A stretch of DNA of 64,000 nucleotides from Candidatus Gastranaerophilales bacterium (GTDB lineage: Bacteria > Cyanobacteriota > Vampirovibrionia > Gastranaerophilales > Gastranaerophilaceae). The notes below the pieces were generated by a model, which ran no database searches, had not been told where the DNA came from, and saw only the letters and a program-made list of their open reading frames with translations. A program made the translations under genes and the position numbers. How positions within the stretch are numbered: the stretch's first letter is position 1; each line of letters opens with the position of its first letter. Where the stretch lies: NCBI GenBank assembly GCA_944322675.1, contig CALUPO010000005.1, positions 62,001 through 126,000 on the forward strand. Reading direction: 5' to 3'. Positions 2,381-22,992 of the stretch are shown here, piece after piece.

Positions 2381-2419
2381 TGGTTAAATTTGTGGTATGA
2401 TATAGAAGAGGTTAATTCC

Positions 2420-3163
2420 ATGTATAACAATCGCTTTAAAGATAATAATGAATACAGAACAAAAATTAATGAGCACAGACCGCTATCTGAGGATGCTCTA
2501 AAGCAAATTAAAGAATATTATAAAATTGGTTTAACGTACGCATCTAACGCTATTGAAGGAAACACTCTTAATTTAGCTGAAACAAAAGTAGTGCTTGAAG
2601 ATGGCATAACTATTGGCGGTAAATCATTAAAAGAGCATTATGAAGCAATAGGACATGCAAAAGCATTTGATAAAATTGTGGAATTATCTCAAAATGCTAT
2701 TTTTACTGAAGAAGATATAAAATCACTACATAAGCTTTTTTACAACCAAATTGATGAAGTAAACGCAGGCAAATATAGAACCAGTCAAGTTATTATCACA
2801 GGTTCTGATGTTGAATTGCCAAAACCAGAAGAACTTAATGCAAAGATGGCTGAATTTGTTAATTCTCTACCACATCTAAAAGAAACATTGCATCCTGTTG
2901 AATATGCTGCAATGGTTCATATTATTTTTGTTAATATACATCCGTTTTTAGATGGCAACGGGAGAGTTGCAAGATTGCTTATGAATTTGGCATTGTTGCA
3001 AAGTGGTTATAATATTGTTGTAATTCCACCAGTAGTTAGAGCCGATTATATTTCAGCATTGCAAGATTCTAATCATGGGAATTATGTTCCTTTTGTAAAC
3101 TTCATATCTGAAATGGTATTGGAATCGCAAAAAGAATATCTAAAAATTATTAGTAGATTTTAA
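2420..3163 (+). CDS. Fic domain protein (likely AMP transferase), class II
   Basis: A 247-residue Fic/DOC-type protein. The catalytic loop HPFLDGNGR (about residues 174-182) matches the canonical HPFx(D/E)GN(G/K)R, so the His and phosphate-binding residues are intact. Near residues 41-47, SNAIEGN fits the inhibitory (S/T)xxxE(G/N) motif placed N-terminal to the Fic core, the class II arrangement in which activity is held off in cis. Such proteins usually transfer AMP from ATP to Ser, Thr or Tyr of a target. The start at 2420 has GAGG upstream; the open frame extends to a GTG at 2390. It stands alone after the dead resolvase; the target cannot be told from sequence. Confidence 0.88.
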   Translation: MYNNRFKDNNEYRTKINEHRPLSEDALKQIKEYYKIGLTYASNAIEGNTLNLAETKVVLEDGITIGGKSLKEHYEAIGHAKAFDKIVELSQNAIFTEEDIKSLHKLFYNQIDEVNAGKYRTSQVIITGSDVELPKPEELNAKMAEFVNSLPHLKETLHPVEYAAMVHIIFVNIHPFLDGNGRVARLLMNLALLQSGYNIVVIPPVVRADYISALQDSNHGNYVPFVNFISEMVLESQKEYLKIISRF

Positions 3164-4171: not shown

Positions 4172-7100
4172 TTAGAATAATTTGCTAAAAATTTGTTCTA
4201 TATAACTAGAATCTTCTTGAAAGACAACGTTATTTTCTTGAAATTCTTCTTTTGAAATACCATCTTTTGCCAAAGAAAGTTGTTTAAAATTGGTATTAGA
4301 TAGTATTATAGAATTTAATTCAACTTTTTCGTCATTCATTTCGTCTTGTATATTTTTTATTTCTTTATAGAATTGTATTTTAGGATTTGAAAGTCCTGAA
4401 ATATGCATTAATCCTTTTGGGTCAATAAACGTTATATATTGTTTATTGTTATAAATGAGCCACATTACAAAATCAGGATAGAAATTATTTGCTTCAAAAA
4501 ATCCTACGCCTCGACCTTTTCCTTGATTTCTTAATAAATATAATTCTTTATCTTCGAAATAATCTTTATTTATTTCAAAATATGTTTTCAAGTCCTCAAC
4601 AAACTGTATCTCTTCGGAATTCAATTGAACAGGAGTTATCTTAATACCATTTTTAGTTTCAAATGATATTAATGGAGTATATAAATGATTATCCCATCCA
4701 ATAGTTTTCAAACCTCTAAATTCAATATCTTCATATTCTCTATTATTTATACTTGTTTTAAGTTGTTCTAGTTTTTCAATAATATCTTTTTTTGAATCCT
4801 CAATATACAATTTATATTGAGATACAACATTAGGGTCATTCTCGTCTATTTCAACATATTCACGGTATTGAGATTCCCATTCATTTTTCTTATTTGTATA
4901 ATATCTTTCACAGTATTTTTTTAATAATCTTACTGCTATATCTTGATATTTTAAAACCTTTCTAAAATCTGTAAAATCAATGTCATCTTGTGGAATATAG
5001 AGTTTATACCAAGATGTATCTTCTAATATAGCTTTTATTTTATCGATAGAAAGATTTAAATTATAATAATTTTTTTCATTTTTTAATTTCTGTAGTTCAA
5101 AAAATATTTCTTGATAATCGATAAAAGCCATTTTTTCTTTGTCTAATTTTGTTTCATTTTTACTTATTACCGAAGAAAATCTTTCTAATGATTCTGTTAA
5201 TTGAACTTTAGAGTACATATCCAATTCTATTGGTCTACTTATAAAATCCCTAGGTGGTAAATCTAAATCAAAACGTCCCCCATCTTTTTTGAAATCAATA
5301 CCTTCTTTTATTCTAGGCATTTTTAAAGGAGTTTTTACATTACCTAAATTAGATATAGCAGGTAATGTGAATTCTATTTTATCTCCAGTAGGTAAACCTT
5401 CTAATTCTAAATATTCTTTAAAAGTTGCCATATAATCTGCTTTTACGCCAAAAATATTCAAAGTTTCAATTGTTTTAATATATTCGGGTTTCTTACTGAT
5501 AAAGTCTTGATAATCACTTCTTTTTAGAGAATAATTAGCCCCTTTTAAACGGACGCCTCGACCAAATAACTGAATAATTTGAGCTCCTTCAGTTTTTCCT
5601 ATGTTCATCAATCCCATAGTAGAAACTCTCCAAGAACTCCATCCTTCGCTAAATTTTTTAGAACCTATTAATAGATTAATTTTAGAATCTTTTTTATTTA
5701 TCCCATGAAATAAAGAATCCGAAAATTCTACAGATGTTGCATGTAAACCATTAGCTTCACACAATTTTATCAAACTATCATTATCGCCAACATTAATAAC
5801 TCCAAAATAATCATTTGTTCCTATTTTTAAGCCAATTTCTCCATCTACACCTTTCAAATTTTCGATATACAAATTAGCTTCTTGTTGTTCTGAATTAAAT
5901 ATAGTTTGCAAAATTTCGGTATATAAAGTCTCTCCAATGTACTTTTTGCTGATTAAATAAGTAAATTTGTTCTCAAAAATAGAAAGTCCTCGACTGTCTA
6001 AAAAGCCATCTTGTCCGTTTAATAAATTGTCAAGAAATTCAACAGTTTTATTTTTCTTTGACACAAAATCATTTATAAATAACAAAATATCAACAACATC
6101 GGATACTTGTTTTTTATTCTCTGTCCTTACAGCATTAACACTGCCACCTACAAATATCCATAAAGGTTTTTCTATCAAAAATGGATTAAACTCATTTTTT
6201 TTATCTTTAAATAGTAACATTTGCTGAAAATAAGTTAATAGACAAGCTGTTAGATATTGAGTTTTTCTATCTTCATCCGAATCATCATCGAGATTTAAGA
6301 TTTGATATTCTTTACCATATCCATCTTCATAAAAATACTTATATGAATAATCAAATAAAATACATTTTGCATATTCATTAGTTAAATCATTATCTTTTAC
6401 TACTGCTTGCCCAAATGTTGCAGAGTATTCAAAACAAAAACCATCTTTAGATAAGGCATTACGTCTTTTTATCCAAGAACCATCTTTGGAACTACTTGCT
6501 CCTCTATGACCTTCATCAACAAGTACAATATTATTTGATTCAAATGCTTCAACAGCAATAGTCTTATCTCCTGTCTCATCAGCCAATTTAGTAATTTCTA
6601 TTATATCTACTCCAAAACCAGTGCTCTGTTGTTGGAACATGCTCATCTGAATATGTTTACCAACTTGCGCTAAAGAAGTTTTGTCAAATATTTTAGCTTC
6701 AATATTAGATAGCTTAAATTCTTCTTTATGTTGTACTGATAAACCTTCATTAGGAGTAACTAGGATTATTCTATTGTAATCTTTTTGTTTGCCATGCAAC
6801 TTCATATAATATTGAATTTGCAAAATATTCATATGCAATAACAAAGTTTTGCCTGAACCAGTTGCAGCCCAAAATGCAATTTTATTTAAATCATTTTCGC
6901 TATATTCAGAAATTTCTTCACCTTCTAGGCATTCTTTGTTATATCGTTCTCTAAAATCATTTAAACTTATAAGCAAATCTTCTTTATTAGAAAAATATTT
7001 ATCTAAATAAATTTCTGTAAATAATAATTCCAAATACTGAAAATACTTCCATTTAATTGGAGTTTCCCTGTTTTCATTAATATGTTTCGTATGAGCAATA

Positions 7101-7342
7101 ATATTTTCATCATATCTTTCTAATTGAGCAACAGTGAGATATTCTTCATCGAAAACAAATCTGTTACTTATAACTTGAAAGAATTTTGTTTGTTGTTTTT
7201 CTATATCAATTTCTTCTAAATAGGTATCTTTCAGATTTTGTCCTAATTTATCAATAGAATCCACTTTAAATAAATTTAAAATAAATTTGAATAGTATTAA
7301 TTTCTTATGAAATTTGATTTTATTGGTTTGTTTCTTAGCCAT
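4172..7342 (-). CDS. type III-like restriction subunit (Res): SF2 helicase with PD-(D/E)XK nuclease
   Basis: A 1056-residue DEAD/DEAH-type translocase with a nuclease tail. Visible in order: Walker A ATGSGKT near residues 158-165; Walker B as DEGH near residue 276, a departure from DEAH; SAT-like motif III (EYSATFG); a motif VI-like stretch with LFGRGVRLKG near residue 591; and at the C-terminus YPDFVMW followed by ITFIDPKG (about 955-975), the D...DxK signature of PD-(D/E)XK nucleases in Res proteins. Res normally cuts DNA after ATP-driven movement and needs its methyltransferase partner for recognition. The gene is last in a three-gene leftward operon, 16 bases after the methyltransferase. 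The unusual feature is the third partner, an SNF2 helicase. Confidence 0.88.
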   Translation of the reverse strand: MAKKQTNKIKFHKKLILFKFILNLFKVDSIDKLGQNLKDTYLEEIDIEKQQTKFFQVISNRFVFDEEYLTVAQLERYDENIIAHTKHINENRETPIKWKYFQYLELLFTEIYLDKYFSNKEDLLISLNDFRERYNKECLEGEEISEYSENDLNKIAFWAATGSGKTLLLHMNILQIQYYMKLHGKQKDYNRIILVTPNEGLSVQHKEEFKLSNIEAKIFDKTSLAQVGKHIQMSMFQQQSTGFGVDIIEITKLADETGDKTIAVEAFESNNIVLVDEGHRGASSSKDGSWIKRRNALSKDGFCFEYSATFGQAVVKDNDLTNEYAKCILFDYSYKYFYEDGYGKEYQILNLDDDSDEDRKTQYLTACLLTYFQQMLLFKDKKNEFNPFLIEKPLWIFVGGSVNAVRTENKKQVSDVVDILLFINDFVSKKNKTVEFLDNLLNGQDGFLDSRGLSIFENKFTYLISKKYIGETLYTEILQTIFNSEQQEANLYIENLKGVDGEIGLKIGTNDYFGVINVGDNDSLIKLCEANGLHATSVEFSDSLFHGINKKDSKINLLIGSKKFSEGWSSWRVSTMGLMNIGKTEGAQIIQLFGRGVRLKGANYSLKRSDYQDFISKKPEYIKTIETLNIFGVKADYMATFKEYLELEGLPTGDKIEFTLPAISNLGNVKTPLKMPRIKEGIDFKKDGGRFDLDLPPRDFISRPIELDMYSKVQLTESLERFSSVISKNETKLDKEKMAFIDYQEIFFELQKLKNEKNYYNLNLSIDKIKAILEDTSWYKLYIPQDDIDFTDFRKVLKYQDIAVRLLKKYCERYYTNKKNEWESQYREYVEIDENDPNVVSQYKLYIEDSKKDIIEKLEQLKTSINNREYEDIEFRGLKTIGWDNHLYTPLISFETKNGIKITPVQLNSEEIQFVEDLKTYFEINKDYFEDKELYLLRNQGKGRGVGFFEANNFYPDFVMWLIYNNKQYITFIDPKGLMHISGLSNPKIQFYKEIKNIQDEMNDEKVELNSIILSNTNFKQLSLAKDGISKEEFQENNVVFQEDSSYIEQIFSKLF

Positions 7343-7358
7343 AATAATTTACCCTATA

Positions 7359-10300
7359 CTAAACTTCTTTTACATCAAACATGCGATTTTTAAACTCTTC
7401 TTCAATCAACATTACCTTGAAGTTTTCTTCATCTGTTTTAAGGTTTTGTAAATTATTATCGCCATTTACATATATCTTGTTAAATTCAAAATCACAAGGA
7501 TTTATTTTTCTGCGTTTTAGGAACTCATCCAAATCTTCATTAGATTTTTCTTCTATATTTCTCCAAATTACAAGAATATTTTCTTCTTTTAAATTTGTAC
7601 CTTCTATAACAATAAAGCCATCTTTTTTATACATAGATGAAACTTTTAACCCGATTAAATAGTTGAAAGTCTCAATTAAATCAACATTGACTAACTTTGT
7701 TTCATTACCTATTGTAATATTCATCTTATAGTCAAATGGATTTTTGAACATTTCGAGATTAAATATACTATTAGAATATTCAAAGTCCATCATATAGGAC
7801 AATTTATATTGTTCTTCAACATCCTGTCCTAACGTGAATTGTCTCTTATTTTTGTTTAAATTATTTAACGCATCTTCATAAGATTCTAATGACATATACT
7901 TAAAAATCTGAGAAACACCATCTCTATTAACAGGTTTTCCATCTTTCCATTCTTTTGAATATATAACTTTTTGAATACGAGGTTTTGTGACTGTATTGAA
8001 ATATTTACCCATTTCACAAAGAATATACTTTCTATTTCCACCATCTTCTCTATTAAGTTCAATAGTAGCATGCCCTGTAACTCCGGAGCCAGAATAAAAA
8101 TCCAAAACAAGATTATTCGGTAGAGTTGCATTATCTATTATATCTATAATTAGTTGCAATGGTTTTGGCGTTGGAAAAATTTTATATCCAAATATTTTTT
8201 TTATTTCTCCAGTTGCAGTATCTGTTAAATATCCATTTTTATTCAGCAAGACACTTTTAGGTTTTTCTCTTAAATCATCAGTTAAATAATCTTTTATGTA
8301 AATAGTTCCTTCTTTACCTGCATATAGGCGATATTCTTTATCTTTTGCAAATTCTTTACTCCAAGTCCATCTACCATCATCTCCATTCGGTAGCTTAGGC
8401 AAAACTTCTTTATAATTTTCTTTATAAGATAAAGATACATCACCATTAGAAGGATTATAATATAATGGATAAAAGCAACCTGGACTATCTTCTCTTCTTT
8501 GTCCATCTCCCTTCTTTCTTAATAAGCCATCCATTTTATATTGCCCATGTAAATCTTTTTTATCAAATTTATTTATAAATTCAGCACTTGGCATTAAACT
8601 TCGAAAACTTTTATTTAATGCTCCATTTTTATATGTAAAAATATACTCATGATTTGTTGCAAAGCCTTCTTTCCCACCTTGACCATTTGAACTTTTGACA
8701 ACAATTAATTGGTCTACCCAATTTTCACGTCCAAACACATAATCCAACACAATAGAATAATATGCAGATTCTCTATTCAACTCATCTTTATCTCCAATAC
8801 TACTATAAAATATACCATTAATTGATAATATTTTTCTAGCTAATCTATTAATATTTAATAATGATGATAACCAAGAACTATCTTTATATTTATCTTTATA
8901 CAAAAAATCATCACTTCCTGTATTATAGGGTGGATCTATGTAGATACATTTTACCTGTTCTCTATACTTTTCTTGCAATAAATTAAGAGCATGAAAATTA
9001 TCTGCATTAATTAATAACCCGTTTGTTTGTTCCTCTAAATTTTCAATTGTTGAGATTAAATCATATTTAAAATCTTGGGAGAAAAATTTAGTATCCAATA
9101 CAAGATATGGGTTTTGTTTTAAGAATTCTATTTTTTTATCTTTATCTGTGCCATTTAGCAATGTATCACCGCCTAGTTTTGTTAAGTCAGCAGTAATTTC
9201 TGAGATTTTGAATAGCTCTTCCCATTCTTGTATTTGTGCTTCATTTGAAATAATCTCAGGGTAAAATCTTTCATCTACTTTATCTAACGTTAGGCAATAG
9301 TTTGTTTCTACAACCATTTTCTTTTTTAACCACAATTTCTTTTGAAATTCTTCAAGTTGAGCTAATAGTGTAATTATTTTTTGTGCAATTTTTTTGATTG
9401 CTTTAGCTTTATTGAGAGATTTTTTGATATTATTTTCATCTAAGTCATCCAGGTTTAGGACTTCATTTTTTATATAGAAATCTAATTCTCTATTTAAAAA
9501 TCCTCCTAAGTCTTTATGTATAAAATAATCAAAGCTATTTTTTGCAGTATAATCGGTAAGGTGTTTTTCTAATAATGTTCTATCTTTGTTTTTTTCTGTA
9601 GGTTTCTTATCTAATAAATTGGTGTAATCAGTGTATTCACTTTTTGATAATTCAGGTAAAAGTTTTGAAATTGTTTCTTCATTATGTTTCTTTTGGTCTT
9701 TTTTATTTTCATCAATTGTATATTGGAATTTAATATATAGTTCACCATCAATAATTTCTATAGGATTTTCATCTATAAGGATAAATCTGCGTTCTTTATC
9801 AGCTTTGTTGTTATCTTTTTCTGTTTCTGCGTCTATTAATTTAAAATGAACAGTTTGTTTGCTTTCATCATTGCCTATTGTAAATGTATAATCTTTAAAA
9901 TTTTCTGAGGTCTTAATATAATATTGGTCAGAATTTGCCCAATGTAATTTTACTTCTTCACCTTCATAAGGTATTGCATAAACATCTTTTTTATATCTTC
10001 TTAAAGACATAAAATCTCCGCCTTCATAATATCTTGAAAAGAAGTTTGTTAAGTGAGAATATACATCATTTTCTAATACTGTTAAATCAACTGAGGATGA
10101 TAATTGGGCTTTTAATTCTTTTACTTTAGGTAAATCATCTGGGTTTGCTCCTAATGATTTTGCTTGTTCAATTGCTTCATTTAGTTCTTTTTGTATAGAA
10201 GCTTTATCTTCGTTCGCTAAATCACTAAAAGATTCTTTTACTTGTGGTAATAGTTTATTATCTAAAAAATCGGTAATTTCTGAGCTCTTTTCGTTCATTA

Positions 10301-10388
10301 TTCGATAAATACCGAAATCTAAATCTGTTTGATCTAATTGAAATATTTCTTTTAATTTCTTCTTTAAATCATTTAGTTTTTCACTCAT
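7359..10388 (-). CDS. N6-adenine DNA methyltransferase, beta class, long (Mod-like)
   Basis: A 1009-residue site-specific DNA methyltransferase. DPPYNTG (about residues 485-491) is the catalytic motif IV and LDFYSGSGVTG (about 758-768) the S-adenosylmethionine-binding motif I. The order IV before I defines the beta class used by type III Mod proteins. The protein is longer than a typical Mod (roughly 600-700 residues), with about 450 mostly helical, charged residues before the catalytic core. The region between the motifs, about 270 residues, probably contains target recognition. It would methylate adenine in host DNA and guide the partner nuclease. Gaps are seven bases to the upstream helicase gene and 16 to the downstream Res gene. 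Confidence 0.9.
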   Translation of the reverse strand: MSEKLNDLKKKLKEIFQLDQTDLDFGIYRIMNEKSSEITDFLDNKLLPQVKESFSDLANEDKASIQKELNEAIEQAKSLGANPDDLPKVKELKAQLSSSVDLTVLENDVYSHLTNFFSRYYEGGDFMSLRRYKKDVYAIPYEGEEVKLHWANSDQYYIKTSENFKDYTFTIGNDESKQTVHFKLIDAETEKDNNKADKERRFILIDENPIEIIDGELYIKFQYTIDENKKDQKKHNEETISKLLPELSKSEYTDYTNLLDKKPTEKNKDRTLLEKHLTDYTAKNSFDYFIHKDLGGFLNRELDFYIKNEVLNLDDLDENNIKKSLNKAKAIKKIAQKIITLLAQLEEFQKKLWLKKKMVVETNYCLTLDKVDERFYPEIISNEAQIQEWEELFKISEITADLTKLGGDTLLNGTDKDKKIEFLKQNPYLVLDTKFFSQDFKYDLISTIENLEEQTNGLLINADNFHALNLLQEKYREQVKCIYIDPPYNTGSDDFLYKDKYKDSSWLSSLLNINRLARKILSINGIFYSSIGDKDELNRESAYYSIVLDYVFGRENWVDQLIVVKSSNGQGGKEGFATNHEYIFTYKNGALNKSFRSLMPSAEFINKFDKKDLHGQYKMDGLLRKKGDGQRREDSPGCFYPLYYNPSNGDVSLSYKENYKEVLPKLPNGDDGRWTWSKEFAKDKEYRLYAGKEGTIYIKDYLTDDLREKPKSVLLNKNGYLTDTATGEIKKIFGYKIFPTPKPLQLIIDIIDNATLPNNLVLDFYSGSGVTGHATIELNREDGGNRKYILCEMGKYFNTVTKPRIQKVIYSKEWKDGKPVNRDGVSQIFKYMSLESYEDALNNLNKNKRQFTLGQDVEEQYKLSYMMDFEYSNSIFNLEMFKNPFDYKMNITIGNETKLVNVDLIETFNYLIGLKVSSMYKKDGFIVIEGTNLKEENILVIWRNIEEKSNEDLDEFLKRRKINPCDFEFNKIYVNGDNNLQNLKTDEENFKVMLIEEEFKNRMFDVKEV

Positions 10389-10395
10389 TTCCCAC

Positions 10396-13281
10396 CTATA
10401 CCACTTTCCAACGGATTTTAAATAAGGTTTCCGTTTTAATATCAGCTTTCATTTGTTCTTTTAATTTTTTTATATTGTCATCTCTTTTAAAGTTTATCTC
10501 TTCTTCCTTTTCATCAATTTCTCTACGAAGTTTAGAAACTTTTCTTCTACAAGCATCTGCTTTTTCTTGAAATTCTATATAATCAGCATTATTTGTAGCT
10601 TGGGAGCTTTCTTTCAAATAATTTCGCATTTTTCGTTTTTCATCAGTAATTTCTTTGTCTAAATTGCCTATTAAATCATCTGCCCATTTGTTTAACCTAT
10701 CGATTTCTCCTTTTAAATAGCTATTATTTAAATTTTGATTTGTATCAATAGTTGAATTTATATGTCTTTTAGCATCTAAATCTAATTCTTTGTTTATAGA
10801 CTCTGGAATGACGATTTGTTGTTTAAATTTCCCAGAAATATTAAATAGCTTTTCACAAATCTCTTGGTCAAGTTTTGTTCCATCGTCACAAAAAGCATTA
10901 AATAATAAATAATCAGCACTTTCAAAAGATTTGATATTTAGTTTGCTTAATACCAAATAACCTGATTTCCCTTGTAAATTTTCTATTACTGATAATTTCT
11001 TTTGGTAATTGCTTATATCAAATTCAATTTCTGCATCTGGTGTAGAAGTTGATATTGCTTCATCTATAACATATTCACCTAATGGATGAGAGAGTCTATA
11101 TAAATAACTACCAATTATATTTTCTTTATCTTTTTCCTTTGATATTAGATAGTAGTTACCAATATTTGCATTTTGAATATGAGATGTATATAAATTGAAA
11201 GTTAAATTTTTATCATCAAATTCAGCATTTTTAGATAAAATAGTTTCTGTTGTTCGCCAGAATAATTTTTCAAATCTACTGAGTTTTTCTCTTGTTTCAT
11301 CTAATTTTATTTTTAGTCGAGTATGAACATCTTCATCAAAATTGTCTAATACATTTTGTTTTGTTAATTGCATTTGAGCTTTTATTTGCTCATCCATTTC
11401 AGCTTGCAATTTATCGAATGCATCGCTTATTTCTTTAGGTGTTCTACAAGAACGATAAATCTCCATGATTTTCTTTTCGAAATCAACACCAGATTCAAGT
11501 GCACCTAACACTTTATCAGAAGACCCAAACACTCCTTCAAATAATTTAAATTTGTCCTTTAATAAATAGTAAACTCGCTTATCAGTTTCATTTGAGCTAT
11601 TTAAAAAGTTTAAGACAACAACATCATGTTTTTGTCCATATCTATGGCATCTTCCAATTCTTTGTTCAATTCTTTGAGGATTCCAAGGTAAGTCATAATT
11701 AATAACTAAAGAACAAAATTGCAAATTTATACCTTCCGCAGCTGATTCTGTTGCTATTAAAATCTCTGCATCATCTCTAAATTTTTCTATAATAGCATTT
11801 CTTGTATCCGCAGTCTTTGAACCACTAATTCTTCCTGAATTTTTATTTTTTTCTAGCCATTCTTGGTATATTTTTTTAGATTCACTATCTGAATTTGTAC
11901 CATTGAAAATCAAAACTTTGCCATTAAAACCATTTTGCTCTAAATAATTTTTTAGATATTCTTGAGTTCTTCTTGATTCAGTAAAAATCAAAGCCTTTCT
12001 TGAAGCGTCAACATCCATTGCTTCAAAACCTTTATTTATTGCTTCAACTAAATGAACTGTTTTAGAATCTGTTTTAATAGACTTTGCTAATTCAATATAC
12101 TTTTCTATCTCATCAATTTCATCTTGAATTTTTTTTGCTTTTTCTTCATCTGAATACTGTTTTGATTCTCTCATTATTTCAGTGTCGTCATTTTCAATAT
12201 CTTCAGAATCTTGTTCTAATAATTCTTTAGTATCTTCATCTATTGAAATTTCTATAAGTGAATCTTCTGAGATTTCTTTATTTTTCAATGCAATCAATCT
12301 GCTTTTAATAGATTCTAGAATTCCTATTACAGCGATAGAAGATGAAGCTAATAATTTTCTTACAACGTTTGTAATCAGAGTTCTTTGTGAATTAGGTATA
12401 GAAAAACTATCGTCCTTTTGTAAAAATTTTGAAATTCCTAAATATAATTCTTGTTCAACTTTTGTTGTTTCAAAAGGAAATGTTATTGGTTTTCTTTGTG
12501 TATAAGGGACATATTCTGTAACATCTTGTCTTAGAGTCCTTTGACAGAATACATTTAATCGATTCCTTAAGTCATTTAAACCAGTAGAAGAATTAACATA
12601 TTGTTGTCTAAAGGAAGATATATCGCCAAATATTTCTTCACTGATAATAGAGGTTAAACCATATAACTCTAATAATGAATTTTGCAATGGTGTTGCTGTT
12701 AATAACATTTTTTTTGTATCTTTTAAAGCAAATTTAATGCCTTGACCAACTTTATTATTTGGTTTATATGCATTTCTTAATTTATGAGCCTCATCTAAAA
12801 CTGCAATATCCCATTTTTGCTCTCTGATTTCATCTTGTTTTGCATTTGCAAAATTATATGACATTATAATCACTTTATTTTTGATGCCAAAAGGATTTAT
12901 AACACCATTTTTTACATATTCATTGTAAGTTTTAGATTCCAAAATAACATTAGGGATGTTAAATTTCTCGTATAGTTCCAAACTCCACTGTTTTCTTAAG
13001 GATGCAGGACATATTATTAATATATTCCGCTTTCTTTCTGCCCAATACTGGCATAAGACCAAACCTGCTTCTATTGTTTTTCCAAGTCCTACCTCATCTG
13101 CAAGTATAACTCCTTTTGATAAAGGGGATTTAAATGCAAATAATGCAGCTTCAACTTGGTGAGGGTTTAAATTAACACAAGCATTAAATAGTGACATTGA
13201 AATTCTATCAGTATCATTAGATGCCGACTGTTTTATCAATTCATTTGCATAATATTTTGCATGGTATTTTGTATATGCCAT
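10396..13281 (-). CDS. SNF2/RapA-type SF2 helicase of the restriction-like operon
   Basis: A 961-residue Snf2-family ATPase. Motif I is DEVGLGKTIEAG (about residues 61-72), motif II LDEAHKLRN (about 161-169), motif III LLTATPLQN, and motif VI QRIGRCHRYGQ (about 537-547). The C-terminal 350 residues are charged and coiled-coil-like. In known families this core translocates on double-stranded DNA; RapA/HepA and the DISARM DrmD helicase share this shape. It is the first gene of the leftward operon with the methyltransferase and Res. A classical type III system has no such subunit, so the set looks closer to DISARM- or Hma-like (helicase, methylase, ATPase) defence loci than to a plain R-M pair. 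Confidence 0.88.
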   Translation of the reverse strand: MAYTKYHAKYYANELIKQSASNDTDRISMSLFNACVNLNPHQVEAALFAFKSPLSKGVILADEVGLGKTIEAGLVLCQYWAERKRNILIICPASLRKQWSLELYEKFNIPNVILESKTYNEYVKNGVINPFGIKNKVIIMSYNFANAKQDEIREQKWDIAVLDEAHKLRNAYKPNNKVGQGIKFALKDTKKMLLTATPLQNSLLELYGLTSIISEEIFGDISSFRQQYVNSSTGLNDLRNRLNVFCQRTLRQDVTEYVPYTQRKPITFPFETTKVEQELYLGISKFLQKDDSFSIPNSQRTLITNVVRKLLASSSIAVIGILESIKSRLIALKNKEISEDSLIEISIDEDTKELLEQDSEDIENDDTEIMRESKQYSDEEKAKKIQDEIDEIEKYIELAKSIKTDSKTVHLVEAINKGFEAMDVDASRKALIFTESRRTQEYLKNYLEQNGFNGKVLIFNGTNSDSESKKIYQEWLEKNKNSGRISGSKTADTRNAIIEKFRDDAEILIATESAAEGINLQFCSLVINYDLPWNPQRIEQRIGRCHRYGQKHDVVVLNFLNSSNETDKRVYYLLKDKFKLFEGVFGSSDKVLGALESGVDFEKKIMEIYRSCRTPKEISDAFDKLQAEMDEQIKAQMQLTKQNVLDNFDEDVHTRLKIKLDETREKLSRFEKLFWRTTETILSKNAEFDDKNLTFNLYTSHIQNANIGNYYLISKEKDKENIIGSYLYRLSHPLGEYVIDEAISTSTPDAEIEFDISNYQKKLSVIENLQGKSGYLVLSKLNIKSFESADYLLFNAFCDDGTKLDQEICEKLFNISGKFKQQIVIPESINKELDLDAKRHINSTIDTNQNLNNSYLKGEIDRLNKWADDLIGNLDKEITDEKRKMRNYLKESSQATNNADYIEFQEKADACRRKVSKLRREIDEKEEEINFKRDDNIKKLKEQMKADIKTETLFKIRWKVV

Positions 13282-13394
13282 CTTACCCTCGTATTTATAC
13301 TAACATGAACAAGCATAATTATTGAATTTATGTAAAGTATATTTTTACCAATTGCTTGTTTATAGTATCATCATTTTATTAAAGGGGATTGCGT
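13282..13394. promoter_or_regulatory. divergent promoter region with inverted repeat
   Basis: This 113-base AT-rich gap separates the leftward operon from the rightward KAP ATPase, so both promoters must lie here. AACAAGC at 13308-13314 is matched by GCTTGTT at 13354-13360, a perfect 7-bp inverted repeat 39 bases apart, suitable for a shared regulator. I cannot assign the -10 and -35 boxes firmly. Confidence 0.5.
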
Positions 13395-16300
13395 ATGACT
13401 AAAAACTTATTTTTACAAGATTCTAATAATAACCATAATGCTAAAGACAGTTTTGGAATACACACAAAAATTGCTGAAACAATTACTGATATAGCTAAAA
13501 ATGAAACTTTATTAAAGTCATCTTTTAATTTGGGATTATTTGGTTCTTGGGGAAGTGGTAAAAGTTATATTGTTGATAAAATCATAAGCAATTTAAAAGA
13601 GGATTACATTACTTTTTATGTTGATGTTTGGAAGTATGTAGGTCACCCTTTAATGAGAAGCATATTATTTGATATAGATTCTCAATTAAAAGCAAAACAA
13701 CTTGATGTTTATAAAGATGGTTATATTGATAAGAACAAAGAAACTTTAGAAAAAAAATTATATGCAGAATCAGAATTCAATGAAGAAATAAAACTCGATT
13801 GGCAAGAAATATGGCAAAAGATAAAACCAATCTTAATATCGCTATTAATTATAAGTGGGATTATATTAATAATATCAATAATTTGTTATTTTAATGACAA
13901 TAGTTGGTTAAAATCATTAAGTATTCCCATATTTTCAGGTTTAGGCTTTGTAACTGCTCCATTAGCCTTTGTATATCTATTAAAATCACAGCTAAAGAAT
14001 CTTGTAAAAACTGTATTCTGTAGTAAAAAAATTAAAACGTATGCATATAAACCAACTTTTTCACCTGAACAATTTGAAGCAATATTCTCTGATATTGTCA
14101 AAAATATAACAACAAATAAAAAAATGCTTATTATATTTGATAATTTAGATAGATGCGAACCCCAATATGCATATGAAACATTATCGGCAATTAAAACTTT
14201 TATGGATAAAGAAAATTGCTTTTATATAATTCCGTGTGATGATATAGCAATAAAAAAATATATAAGCTTAAATTACAATATTATTAATAACGACAATGAA
14301 GATAATAATGATAATGCCGATAAAAAATTCTGCAATGAAGTAGGAGATGAGTTTTTTGATAAACTATTTAATACATATATAAGAATCCCGCATTTGCAAG
14401 AAATTGATAGAGATATTTTTATCGAAGAACAATTAAAAGAATTATCTATATATAGGGATATTGAAACAAATATTTCTGAAATAAAGCAAATATTATTTTA
14501 TGGTTATAATGGGGCTACTCCTAGACAAATAAAAAGATTTATTAATGATTTTTCATTAAATTACCAATTAGCTCAAAATATTGACCCAGAACATACTTTT
14601 TTATTAAAAGATTTAACTTTGTTTACGGTTATGATGGTGATAAAACAAAAATGGAGTAATGTTGAATCAGAGTTAATTGTAACTCCTGACTTATTTTCAG
14701 TTAAAAATTGTAAAGAATATTCAAAGTTTATAAACAGAGTTAAAAACCTTTTACCTAAAAACATTCCATCGATAATGTCTTTTATATATATGAAAGATGC
14801 AATAGATGTAAAATCTATATCCAATAATTTAAAACAAGGTAAGTTAATACAAGACATAAATGACAATTCTGTGATTATAATAAAAAATGAAATACAGAAT
14901 ATGATAGATAATAATGAAAAACTATATTTACAACAAACTGCATCATCTTTGTTTAATATTTTATATCAATCTAAAAATTTAAAAGAAAATAATAAAAATA
15001 TGTTGATAAAATACCTAGGTGATATCTTATCACTAGAAGATATTAACTTTATTGATTTTATTAATCAAAACAAAACTGTAATTGATGAAATAGTTCTATA
15101 TATTAAAGAAATGAGAGATTTTAACAAAGATAAAGTTAAACAAAAAATTTCAGATGTGTTGAGGTTAAATCAGGAGATAGACAAAAACATAAACAAGGAA
15201 CAATGTTTAGATTGTGAAAATAAAATAAAATTATTTAAAAATGTTTTGGGGCATAATGAAATAATTGACAACTTATATATAAGTAAAGTATTTAGAGATA
15301 TTAGCGAAATATCACAAATTGATGAACCTATGCAAAAGTATGTAGAGATATTGGGAGAACAGGGTAAACTATCTTTAATTCCGTCATCTTTTATAAATTT
15401 GATTATAACATCAATTTCAAAAGACTCTTTTTCAGAAAACGTATATAATTGCTTAAAAAACTTCAATAGAAAAACACTTCCTGAACAGAATAAAAAAGTA
15501 TTAGCTCAAAGATTAAATACTATAATTTCAGAAATCTATTCGCAAATAAATGTATATTACAATAAAGAAAATCTGTTAAATGGTTTAAATATGGCTATTA
15601 AATTGATAGACGATTCTTCTTTTGATAAAAGTGAAATAAGTCAATTCAATAATGTTTTGTATAACTTTATACAAAATCTAATGTCTTATAAACCTCAAAT
15701 GACAATGGATTTTTTAATTGAAGCTCTGCGTTTTATAACAGTGGTAAATGATTCATCTTATGATGCAATATTGAGAAAATGCTTGCAATCAGTGGATAAT
15801 CAGAAAATATTTGCAAATAGACTAGAAGAATTAAACAACAAAGAGTATGTTGAAAAAATAATAGACTGTCAGGCTTCAAAACAATTTTTATTCAATTTTG
15901 TAGAAATCAGAAAAATTTGTGTTCAATTAATGCAAGATTCTCTTTCAGATTGTTATGAGAAGTTATTAAGAGAAAAAGATGATAAAATGGATGATTTAAA
16001 AACATTATTAGAAATAAAAGAAAAATATCATACGGAACTAAATAAAAGTGAATTTAAAACCTTTATTTTTTCCAAATATTTTAACCCTGATAACTTAGAG
16101 AAATCATATTCATTATTGGAATTATTGAATAAGTACAATATAAAAGCCACAGAACAAGATTTTAGCACTATTAAAAATAGTACATTAGAAGCATACAAAA
16201 GTGACCCTAAAAGTGGCATTAGGTTCTTAAAAATAGCTAGTGAAACGCTTACTAAAAAACAATTTAATAAGATATTTTTATCTCCATTGTTGAAATTTAT

Positions 16301-16586
16301 AAATAGTGAATTACAGGCAACTAAATCGGTAGGAATATATTCTAATATCGTTTCAATTTTTAATCCCCAATTAGTTGTAAATAATGTTGATATTCTAAAA
16401 GAATTAATTACTCAATTACTGGAAGATGGACAAGAAGCTAATGAATATGAATTAGCTGTACAAATAATTAATTATTTAAGTCAAAATTCCATATCAATTG
16501 AAGAATTCAAGGAAATTGTTCAAAGAAAAACAAATCTTATAAGCAAGGAAGGACAAGATATTATTACAGAAATTTATAATAAATAA
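13395..16586 (+). CDS. KAP-family P-loop NTPase, membrane-anchored
   Basis: A 1063-residue KAP NTPase. Walker A GSWGSGKS lies near residues 50-57 and Walker B LIIFDNLDR near 244-252, both of classic KAP form. Two hydrophobic segments between them (about residues 142-166 and 175-196) are the usual KAP membrane insertion, placing the protein at the inner membrane. The rest is a long helical region. The start is the ATG at 13395 with AAAGGGG seven bases upstream; the frame is open from a TTG at 13389. It is divergent from the helicase-methylase-Res operon across 113 bases. KAP proteins are frequent in defence islands, so a role as a fourth component or as a separate defence gene is plausible but unproven. 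Confidence 0.88.
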   Translation: MTKNLFLQDSNNNHNAKDSFGIHTKIAETITDIAKNETLLKSSFNLGLFGSWGSGKSYIVDKIISNLKEDYITFYVDVWKYVGHPLMRSILFDIDSQLKAKQLDVYKDGYIDKNKETLEKKLYAESEFNEEIKLDWQEIWQKIKPILISLLIISGIILIISIICYFNDNSWLKSLSIPIFSGLGFVTAPLAFVYLLKSQLKNLVKTVFCSKKIKTYAYKPTFSPEQFEAIFSDIVKNITTNKKMLIIFDNLDRCEPQYAYETLSAIKTFMDKENCFYIIPCDDIAIKKYISLNYNIINNDNEDNNDNADKKFCNEVGDEFFDKLFNTYIRIPHLQEIDRDIFIEEQLKELSIYRDIETNISEIKQILFYGYNGATPRQIKRFINDFSLNYQLAQNIDPEHTFLLKDLTLFTVMMVIKQKWSNVESELIVTPDLFSVKNCKEYSKFINRVKNLLPKNIPSIMSFIYMKDAIDVKSISNNLKQGKLIQDINDNSVIIIKNEIQNMIDNNEKLYLQQTASSLFNILYQSKNLKENNKNMLIKYLGDILSLEDINFIDFINQNKTVIDEIVLYIKEMRDFNKDKVKQKISDVLRLNQEIDKNINKEQCLDCENKIKLFKNVLGHNEIIDNLYISKVFRDISEISQIDEPMQKYVEILGEQGKLSLIPSSFINLIITSISKDSFSENVYNCLKNFNRKTLPEQNKKVLAQRLNTIISEIYSQINVYYNKENLLNGLNMAIKLIDDSSFDKSEISQFNNVLYNFIQNLMSYKPQMTMDFLIEALRFITVVNDSSYDAILRKCLQSVDNQKIFANRLEELNNKEYVEKIIDCQASKQFLFNFVEIRKICVQLMQDSLSDCYEKLLREKDDKMDDLKTLLEIKEKYHTELNKSEFKTFIFSKYFNPDNLEKSYSLLELLNKYNIKATEQDFSTIKNSTLEAYKSDPKSGIRFLKIASETLTKKQFNKIFLSPLLKFINSELQATKSVGIYSNIVSIFNPQLVVNNVDILKELITQLLEDGQEANEYELAVQIINYLSQNSISIEEFKEIVQRKTNLISKEGQDIITEIYNK

Positions 16587-16603: not shown

Positions 16604-17014
16604 ATGAGAAAATTTTTAGTTTTATTATTAATGTTATTCTTTACAAATGTAGCTTTTGCAGTTAATCCTTATGACAGATATGGGCAAAAGACCGGTTCTT
16701 ACAGGCAAACAACTTCAGGCTACAATTCATATGATAGATATGGTTCTAAAACTGGCTCGTATAAGGAAACATCCTCTGGTTATAACAAGTATGATAAATA
16801 TGGACAAAAGACAGGAAGCTATAAAAAGACATCTTCTGGGTATAATTCCTATGATAGGTATGGACAGAAAACTGGTAGTTACAAGACAAATTCTAATGGC
16901 GTAACTACAAAATACGATAAGTACGGTCAAAAAGTAGGTTCTTTTAAAAAGGACTCTTCTGGAAGAATTACCGAATATGACAAATACGGAAGAAAAGTCG
17001 GAACCTATAAATAA
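16604..17014 (+). CDS. small secreted protein with six YDxYG/GSY repeats
   Basis: A 136-residue protein: a cleavable signal peptide (MRKFLVLLLMLFF..., A-x-A site near residues 17-19) followed by six near-identical units of about 20 residues built on YDKYGQKTGSYK-SSG. It has no cysteines and is rich in Tyr, Gly, Ser and Lys, like surface or matrix proteins and short Tyr/Gly repeats. GGAGGG lies just upstream of the ATG. It begins 17 bases after the KAP gene, so it may be cotranscribed. That is odd for a defence gene, and it may simply be passenger DNA. Function unknown. Confidence 0.75.
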   Translation: MRKFLVLLLMLFFTNVAFAVNPYDRYGQKTGSYRQTTSGYNSYDRYGSKTGSYKETSSGYNKYDKYGQKTGSYKKTSSGYNSYDRYGQKTGSYKTNSNGVTTKYDKYGQKVGSFKKDSSGRITEYDKYGRKVGTYK

Positions 17015-17042: not shown

Positions 17043-17324
17043 ATGATTAAATCTTTTAATTGCAAGGAAACAGAAAAAATCTGGCATGAAGAGTTTTCAA
17101 AGAAGCTTCCACATGATATTCAAAAGCGAGCTTTAAGGAAGCTTATGATGCTTAATGTTGCAACTGTACTTGAAGATTTAAGAATTCCACCCAACAATCG
17201 TTTAGAAGCCCTGACTGGAGACAGGCAAGGTCAGTATTCAATTCGCATAAACGACCAATATAGAATATGCTTTAGATGGCTTGATAACCATTCTTTTGAT
17301 GTTGAAATAGTAGATTATCACTAA
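17043..17324 (+). CDS. higB: HigB-type toxin (RelE superfamily)
   Basis: A 93-residue RelE/HigB-like ribosome-dependent mRNA interferase. The C-terminal half (LEALTGDRQGQYSIRINDQYRICF) is the signature of the plasmid maintenance killer family, in which basic and aromatic residues act on mRNA in the ribosomal A site. The toxin precedes the antitoxin, the order characteristic of higBA. There is no good ribosome site before the ATG, consistent with low toxin translation. Together with higA it would stabilise the island. Confidence 0.88.
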   Translation: MIKSFNCKETEKIWHEEFSKKLPHDIQKRALRKLMMLNVATVLEDLRIPPNNRLEALTGDRQGQYSIRINDQYRICFRWLDNHSFDVEIVDYH

Positions 17325-21645: not shown

Positions 21646-22992
21646 TTAAGCAATGTTTTGCATAAAATCTTCTATATTACGCAATAAGTCGCATGATGTT
21701 TGTGTCATTGCTTCAAATATATCTATGCAAAAAGTTCTATCTTCAGATAATTCGAGGAGTTTTTTATTACGATTTAATCCTTTGGCGAATATGTCAAAGG
21801 GTTTTTTGTACTCATAGCTTAAGCTTTCGCCATCCATACATAAGTTCTGAAGTACATAATTTAGCAACTCTCTTTTTTCACTATTGTCTGCAACTTTGTA
21901 TAAATCCTCAACCTCATTACAAATTTTTAGGAATTTTGCACCCATTTCAATAAAGTTTATATTTGTTTTTTCATGGGCGGTTATAGCGTTTTGTATGGCG
22001 AATAAATCCTGTGTCCATTTATTATGTCTATCCAGCCAAAAATCTTCGGAAATTTTGCCGTCCAGCTTATCTAAATAGATTTTATCAATCCGCTCTCTTA
22101 ACTTTTGTTTCTGTGTATTTAAGCTATTTATTCTCTCTTTTGTGTATCTTTGTTCATCTTTGAAGCTTTCCGCTAAGACGCTTGAAATCCATTCTTTGTG
22201 TTCATCAGTAATTGTAATTCTTGAAAGAGCCTGTAATAGCTGTTTTTCAATAGTTTCTTCTTTTATATAAATATGTTGCTGCTCACATTCTCCCTTGCCG
22301 CCAGTGCAAGAATAGTAAATATATTTACCTTTTTTAATCTCTCCTGACAAGTTACAGCCGCATTTTGAACATTTTATCATGCCTGCGAATAAGAAATTTC
22401 TAGCTATCATGTGTTTAGGTTTATTATCCTTTCTGAAAGCGAGTTGTGTTAAGTCAAATAATTCTTTTGTAATCAATGCTTGGTGCTTACCTTCATAACA
22501 CTCCCCTTTGTATTGCACAACGCCATAATAAAAAGGATTTTTTAGTATATGCTCAATCTGTGTTTTATATGCTTTGGGAGTAGTGTCCTTATATATAAAG
22601 CCTTCATCATACAATCGGCTTGATAATTGTCTTAATGAAACATCACCTTTAGAATAGAGTTCAAAGGCTCTGACAACATAAGGTGCTGTCTTTTCATCTA
22701 TTACACTGTTTTTCTTATCCAGTTTCTTATAACCGTATGGAGGTTTGCCTGTAACATATCCTTCTTTTGCCTTTTGGGTTAAACCTTTTTTAACTTCTTC
22801 ACTTAAATTTTGAACATATTGCCTTGCCATTCCCACTTTTATAAGGTGCATAAATTTTTCGCTGGAGTGCGATTCTGGTGTTAAAATCGTTCCTTCTTTT
22901 ACAAAATGAAGGTTTAAAGGCATATTATCAAGCGTTATATAGTCGGGTAAATTCCTATACAAACGGTCGTTTTCATTGCTGATTATATACAC
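21646..22992 (-). pseudogene. large serine recombinase lacking its catalytic N-terminus
   Basis: Still 448 codons long. It starts inside the resolvase domain at DRLYRNLPDY, the equivalent of the DRLxRN segment, so roughly 60-75 N-terminal residues including the nucleophilic serine are missing. The recombinase domain (KPPYGYKKLDKK through NPFYYGVVQYKG), the zinc ribbon (CSKCGCNL ... CTGGKGEC) and a C-terminal coiled coil (LNTQKQKLRERIDKIY) are intact. A TGA lies directly before the first usable codon (GTG at 22992), and the DNA upstream shows no resolvase similarity in any frame. It is probably the former integrase of the island, cut by rearrangement. Confidence 0.85.

Follow-up and report, generated by a model that had tools for sequence, protein, structure and literature searches.

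Type III restriction-modification (R-M) systems that methylate cytosine at N4 (m4C) were characterised by Murray et al. in 2021 (PMC8259958). In Eco86II and BspHIV, a third gene, for a helicase-like ATPase (SF2 helicase), lies directly 5' of mod, and both systems were shown to produce m4C (PMC8259958). An additional SF2 helicase gene 5' of mod is reported for >500 genomes (PMC8259958). For Eco86II, methylation does not need the SNF2 protein, which was also undetected in a preparation that cleaves DNA, and cleavage occurs 3' of the site at a distance of about 25 bp (PMC8259958). We compared these systems with a locus found in the window, the whole stretch of 64,000 nucleotides analysed here.

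Organization of the locus

All four open reading frames of the initial annotation are present at their positions (Table 1), and Pfam bears out its domain calls: SNF2-rel_dom with Helicase_C in the 961-aa protein, N6_N4_Mtase in the methylase, ResIII in the nuclease and a KAP P-loop domain in the divergent protein. SNF2, Mod and Res genes form a tight operon with gaps of 7 bp (SNF2-Mod) and 16 bp (Mod-Res) and no inserted gene, and the catalytic motifs of all three proteins look intact. The KAP protein most likely starts at the ATG at 13395, which is preceded by AAAGGGG. This start gives a product of 1063 aa and accounts for the 113-bp distance to the SNF2 start.

Table 1. Features of the locus and its flanks; positions are those of the window
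Feature	Position	Strand	Description
Fic/DOC protein	2390-3163	+
Res	4172-7342	-	1056 aa, type III restriction helicase-nuclease
Mod	7359-10388	-	1009 aa, beta-class amino-methyltransferase
SNF2/RapA-like helicase-ATPase subunit	10396-13281	-	961 aa, first gene of the operon
Spacer between divergent SNF2 and KAP genes	13282-13394	none	holds a breakpoint near 13343-13359
Inverted repeat arms	13305-13315 / 13353-13363		10/11 positions paired
KAP P-loop ATPase ORF	13389-16586	+
Repeat protein gene	16604-17014	+	signal-peptide-like protein with YDRYGQKTGSY-type repeats
HigB-like toxin	17043-17324	+
Large serine recombinase	21646-22992	-

The locus of E. coli NCTC86 (NZ_CP019778.1) encodes SNF2, Mod and Res in this order (963, 1040 and 1126 aa), and we refer to it as Eco86II because its strain, gene order and protein types match PMC8259958. 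Identity to its proteins is 48% for SNF2, 42% for Mod and 45% for Res over nearly the full length. The two loci share the order SNF2-Mod-Res on one strand, a long Mod N-terminus and intact catalytic motifs; they differ in that the proteins are 42-48% identical and that a KAP gene lies next door here. BspHIV is likened to our locus through its published description, the sequence comparison being with Eco86II alone. The sequence features of the subgroup are found: an ATPase gene 5' of mod and co-directional with it, res coming after mod, motifs IV and I in Mod, and Walker A, DExH and PD-(D/E)XK motifs in Res. Given the full-length homology and the same gene order, the locus is a diverged member of the Eco86II/BspHIV subgroup. 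Hence, judged by sequence, the SNF2-Mod-Res operon is of a known three-component type III R-M kind and no new architecture.

Mod, Res and SNF2 subunits

Mod matches the PADLOC MTase_III model (E-value 1.6e-211), and its motif IV (DPPY, residue 485) precedes motif I (763-769, with FYSGSG near 765), the order of the beta class. The catalytic region is related to EcoP15I Mod (4zcf). Classical type III systems such as EcoP15I share Mod and Res with this locus, but they lack the extra SNF2 gene, and their Mod is shorter (644 aa versus about 1000 aa here). The N-terminal extension of about 450 residues in the 1009-residue Mod, singled out earlier, is real but not special: the whole family, Eco86II included, has it. 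An AlphaFold model of this extension is of moderate quality (pLDDT 75, pTM 0.47) and gave no significant fold match in the PDB (best E-value 2.3).

The initial annotation called Mod an adenine methylase. Sequence cannot tell the modified base (Pfam gives N6 or N4), and the label is unsupported because both characterised three-gene systems, Eco86II and BspHIV, make m4C. The label is better amended to "adenine or cytosine", with cytosine more likely. By analogy with these systems, m4C is probably the better guess and m6A a possible one; with an identity to Eco86II of 42-48%, the modified base may differ here.

Res matches the PADLOC REase_III model (E-value 1.1e-219) and contains GSGKT, DEGH and PD-(D/E)XK-like motifs; a search of the solved Res structures gave no sequence match at an E-value of 0.001. 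The SNF2 protein has intact Walker A, DEAH and VI motifs, and its top match among solved structures is RapA. No nuclease domain was found in it, Pfam giving helicase-type domains only.

By homology, Mod would bind a short asymmetric site and methylate one strand, probably at cytosine N4. On unmethylated DNA, the Mod-Res complex would slide, powered by ATP hydrolysis in Res, until it runs into another complex at a site of inverted orientation, after which cleavage would follow about 25 bp past the site. As for the RapA-like SNF2 subunit, it is likely a double-stranded-DNA translocase that helps in vivo. It might, for example, strip RNA polymerase or other bound proteins off the DNA before the sliding complex arrives, or recycle complexes that have stalled.

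Distribution and co-divergence of the three genes

We used the Mod N-terminal region as a query, with one genome per species, and found at least 578 relatives, the best 80 of which were kept with their flanks. Among these 80, SNF2 lies upstream of Mod in 41 of the 54 relatives with enough upstream DNA, and Res lies downstream in 59 of the 60 loci with enough flank. Complete SNF2-Mod-Res triads were found at 57 of about 90 loci examined, in many phyla. According to record titles, the hosts of the relatives include Planctomycetes, Bacteroidetes, Firmicutes, Proteobacteria, Nitrospirae, Verrucomicrobia and others. The triad also occurs on plasmids (Klebsiella, E. coli, Aeromonas, Hymenobacter); on a haloarchaeal plasmid, Mod-Res is present without an SNF2 of this kind. 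Protein distances are correlated between the subunits (SNF2-Mod 0.50, Mod-Res 0.83, SNF2-Res 0.68; permutation maximum 0.19), shared organism history being uncontrolled in these values.

The SNF2 gene is absent from 13 of the 54 relatives, and its absence is scattered on the Mod tree, taking as many changes as with shuffled labels. Since absence is scattered in this way, the SNF2 subunit looks helpful rather than obligatory. One could go further and regard SNF2 as a separate passenger gene with no function in the type III system. The scattered absence would fit this, as would the Eco86II experiments, in which methylation proceeds without SNF2 and SNF2 peptides are absent from the cleaving preparation (PMC8259958). 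However, the place of SNF2 5' of mod is kept in different phyla, the two genes often lying no more than tens of bases apart, the divergence of SNF2 correlates with that of both Mod and Res, and the SNF2-mod association is the one published for >500 genomes (PMC8259958). We therefore consider a mere passenger unlikely.

On a Priestia plasmid (L035:8992-18127), a UvrD helicase with a PD-(D/E)XK nuclease domain fills the SNF2 slot before Mod-Res. In a related genome (G015, L041:3423-6247), the genes directly after the triad are SIR2-like and HerA-like, a combination typically seen in defence. In a genome of the same family (G067:C27:5460-9618, partly in L011), a remoter SNF2-like gene (33% identity) stands just before a type III-like Mod.

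KAP gene and other readings of the locus

The KAP protein scores 93 bits with the KAP_NTPase Pfam model. We found no KAP gene near triad relatives, either in the 80 species-genome loci or in 20 viral-contig loci. Within the same bacterial family, KAP relatives 98%, 55% and 37% identical are encoded in genomes G067, G096 and G008, respectively, and these three genomes have no close SNF2 and no Mod of the family. In turn, the triad-bearing genomes G014 and G015 have no KAP, and a genome of the same genus (G001) lacks both KAP and a Mod of the family. In G008 the KAP gene adjoins tyrosine integrase and resolvase genes, and in G096 it is near a Mu-type transposase gene. Viral contigs gave no KAP homologues, and plasmids gave only distant haloarchaeal KAP-domain proteins.

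The nucleotide match with the 98% copy begins at 13359, inside the spacer, and DNA upstream of this point is unmatched; the match with the 55% copy begins at 13343. An inverted repeat between the divergent genes had been pointed out earlier, but 22% of dinucleotide shuffles of the 113-bp spacer give a perfect repeat no shorter than its 8-nt core, which puts it at chance level. A shared operator in the spacer was rejected on this ground, and also since the left arm of the repeat lies outside the KAP-conserved DNA. Of the two roles proposed for KAP, effector or unrelated neighbour, the data speak for the latter: it is absent from relatives of the triad, and its own homologues occur without the triad. 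On this sequence evidence, KAP is most plausibly an unrelated neighbour that is mobile in its own right, rather than a component.

A four-component system, with KAP as a divergently encoded membrane effector triggered when the R-M part senses phage, could be argued from the adjoining divergent position of KAP and SNF2 113 bp apart, from the membrane segments predicted in KAP, and from the KAP proteins known in further defence systems, Qat being one. QatA indeed shares the KAP P-loop domain, but our protein reaches 68.4 bits with its model versus a cut-off of 600. Against such a system stand the distribution of KAP and the triad in both directions, the breakpoint in the spacer and the chance-level repeat, which together make it very unlikely. 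Also suggested by one subunit is a DISARM or ARMADA variant built from a DrmD-like helicase and a methylase: DrmD models are the best-scoring ones for the SNF2 protein, and class 1 DISARM (with DrmD) likewise combines a related SNF2-like helicase with a DNA methylase. However, the SNF2 protein scores 678.8 bits, under the curated DrmD cut-off of 950, and the methylase (PF01555) is a Mod as in type III systems, accompanied by a Res subunit. Moreover, DUF1998/MZB (PF09369), which marks DrmB and helicases of the YprA type, is absent from the whole genome, whereas controls were positive in 8 genomes. With PF09369 missing and the DrmD cut-off unmet, we rejected DISARM/ARMADA membership, whose probability we regard as close to nil. 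The earlier view that the locus is neither plain type III nor DISARM holds: Res and Mod are present together with SNF2, DrmD stays below its cut-off, and there is no DrmB-type protein.

BREX membership was rejected as PglZ (PF08665) is absent from the genome. In PADLOC, HmaA gave 184.2 bits for the SNF2 protein, far under DrmD (668.3 bits), and no Hma model was listed for Mod (among the best 25 models) or for KAP. From these scores, Hma membership is provisionally judged unlikely.

Overall, we are confident that the window holds a three-component type III R-M system of the Eco86II/BspHIV subgroup, probably acquired horizontally, beside an unrelated mobile KAP gene. The initial annotation was right to see a restriction-type defence locus. 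Its idea of a four-component or new architecture finds no support: the triad matches a published system and occurs in many phyla without KAP, while KAP has a separate history, so that both the novelty and the KAP link fall. A striking four-gene arrangement is thereby resolved into a known three-gene restriction system and a mobile gene unrelated to it, which leaves a mostly ordinary locus, a further member of the published subgroup.

The flanks of the locus resemble a mobile defence island, with a Fic/DOC protein, a HigB-like toxin and a large serine recombinase (Table 1). The repeat protein gene that follows KAP has a 95% copy behind KAP in G067 and a 96% copy in G001. As G001 has no KAP, this gene is not a fixed KAP partner.

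Genes inserted inside related operons

We looked at the genes lying inside related operons. Counted among complete triads only, 29 of 57 have at least one same-strand gene of at least 140 aa in the SNF2-Mod or the Mod-Res interval, and many of the inserted genes are of defence type. An AAA_21 and DUF4276 pair is placed between Mod and Res at seven loci from different host phyla (L033, L046, L061, L063, L064, L075 and L082, with L063 and L064 being near-duplicates). Other inserts scanned include a YhcG nuclease, Schlafen/AlbA, a weak AbiJ match, GmrSD, PHP-AAA, AAA_21/AAA_15, IrrE-HTH and AAA_14-DUF4143; some of the inserted genes scanned gave no Pfam match.

One might propose from this that SNF2-bearing type III loci are a modular chassis, in which exchangeable in-operon genes (in about half of the complete triads, many belonging to known defence or abortive-infection families; AAA_21 with DUF4276, YhcG, Schlafen/AlbA, AbiJ-like, GmrSD, PHP-AAA, OLD-like) are functionally coupled to the system, with the R-M core or SNF2 serving as a sensor or licence for a second-line effector, and KAP being such an effector outside the operon. 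We hold this proposal to be quite improbable. In-operon defence genes would make triad operons good places to seek coupled effectors.

Loci in E. coli (L126:15808-26353) and Salmonella (L038:6232-16247) combine a related SNF2 and a Res with a short Mod of about 565 aa, and Abi and AIPR genes lie within them. A small HTH gene upstream in the E. coli short-Mod locus is annotated as MAD1.
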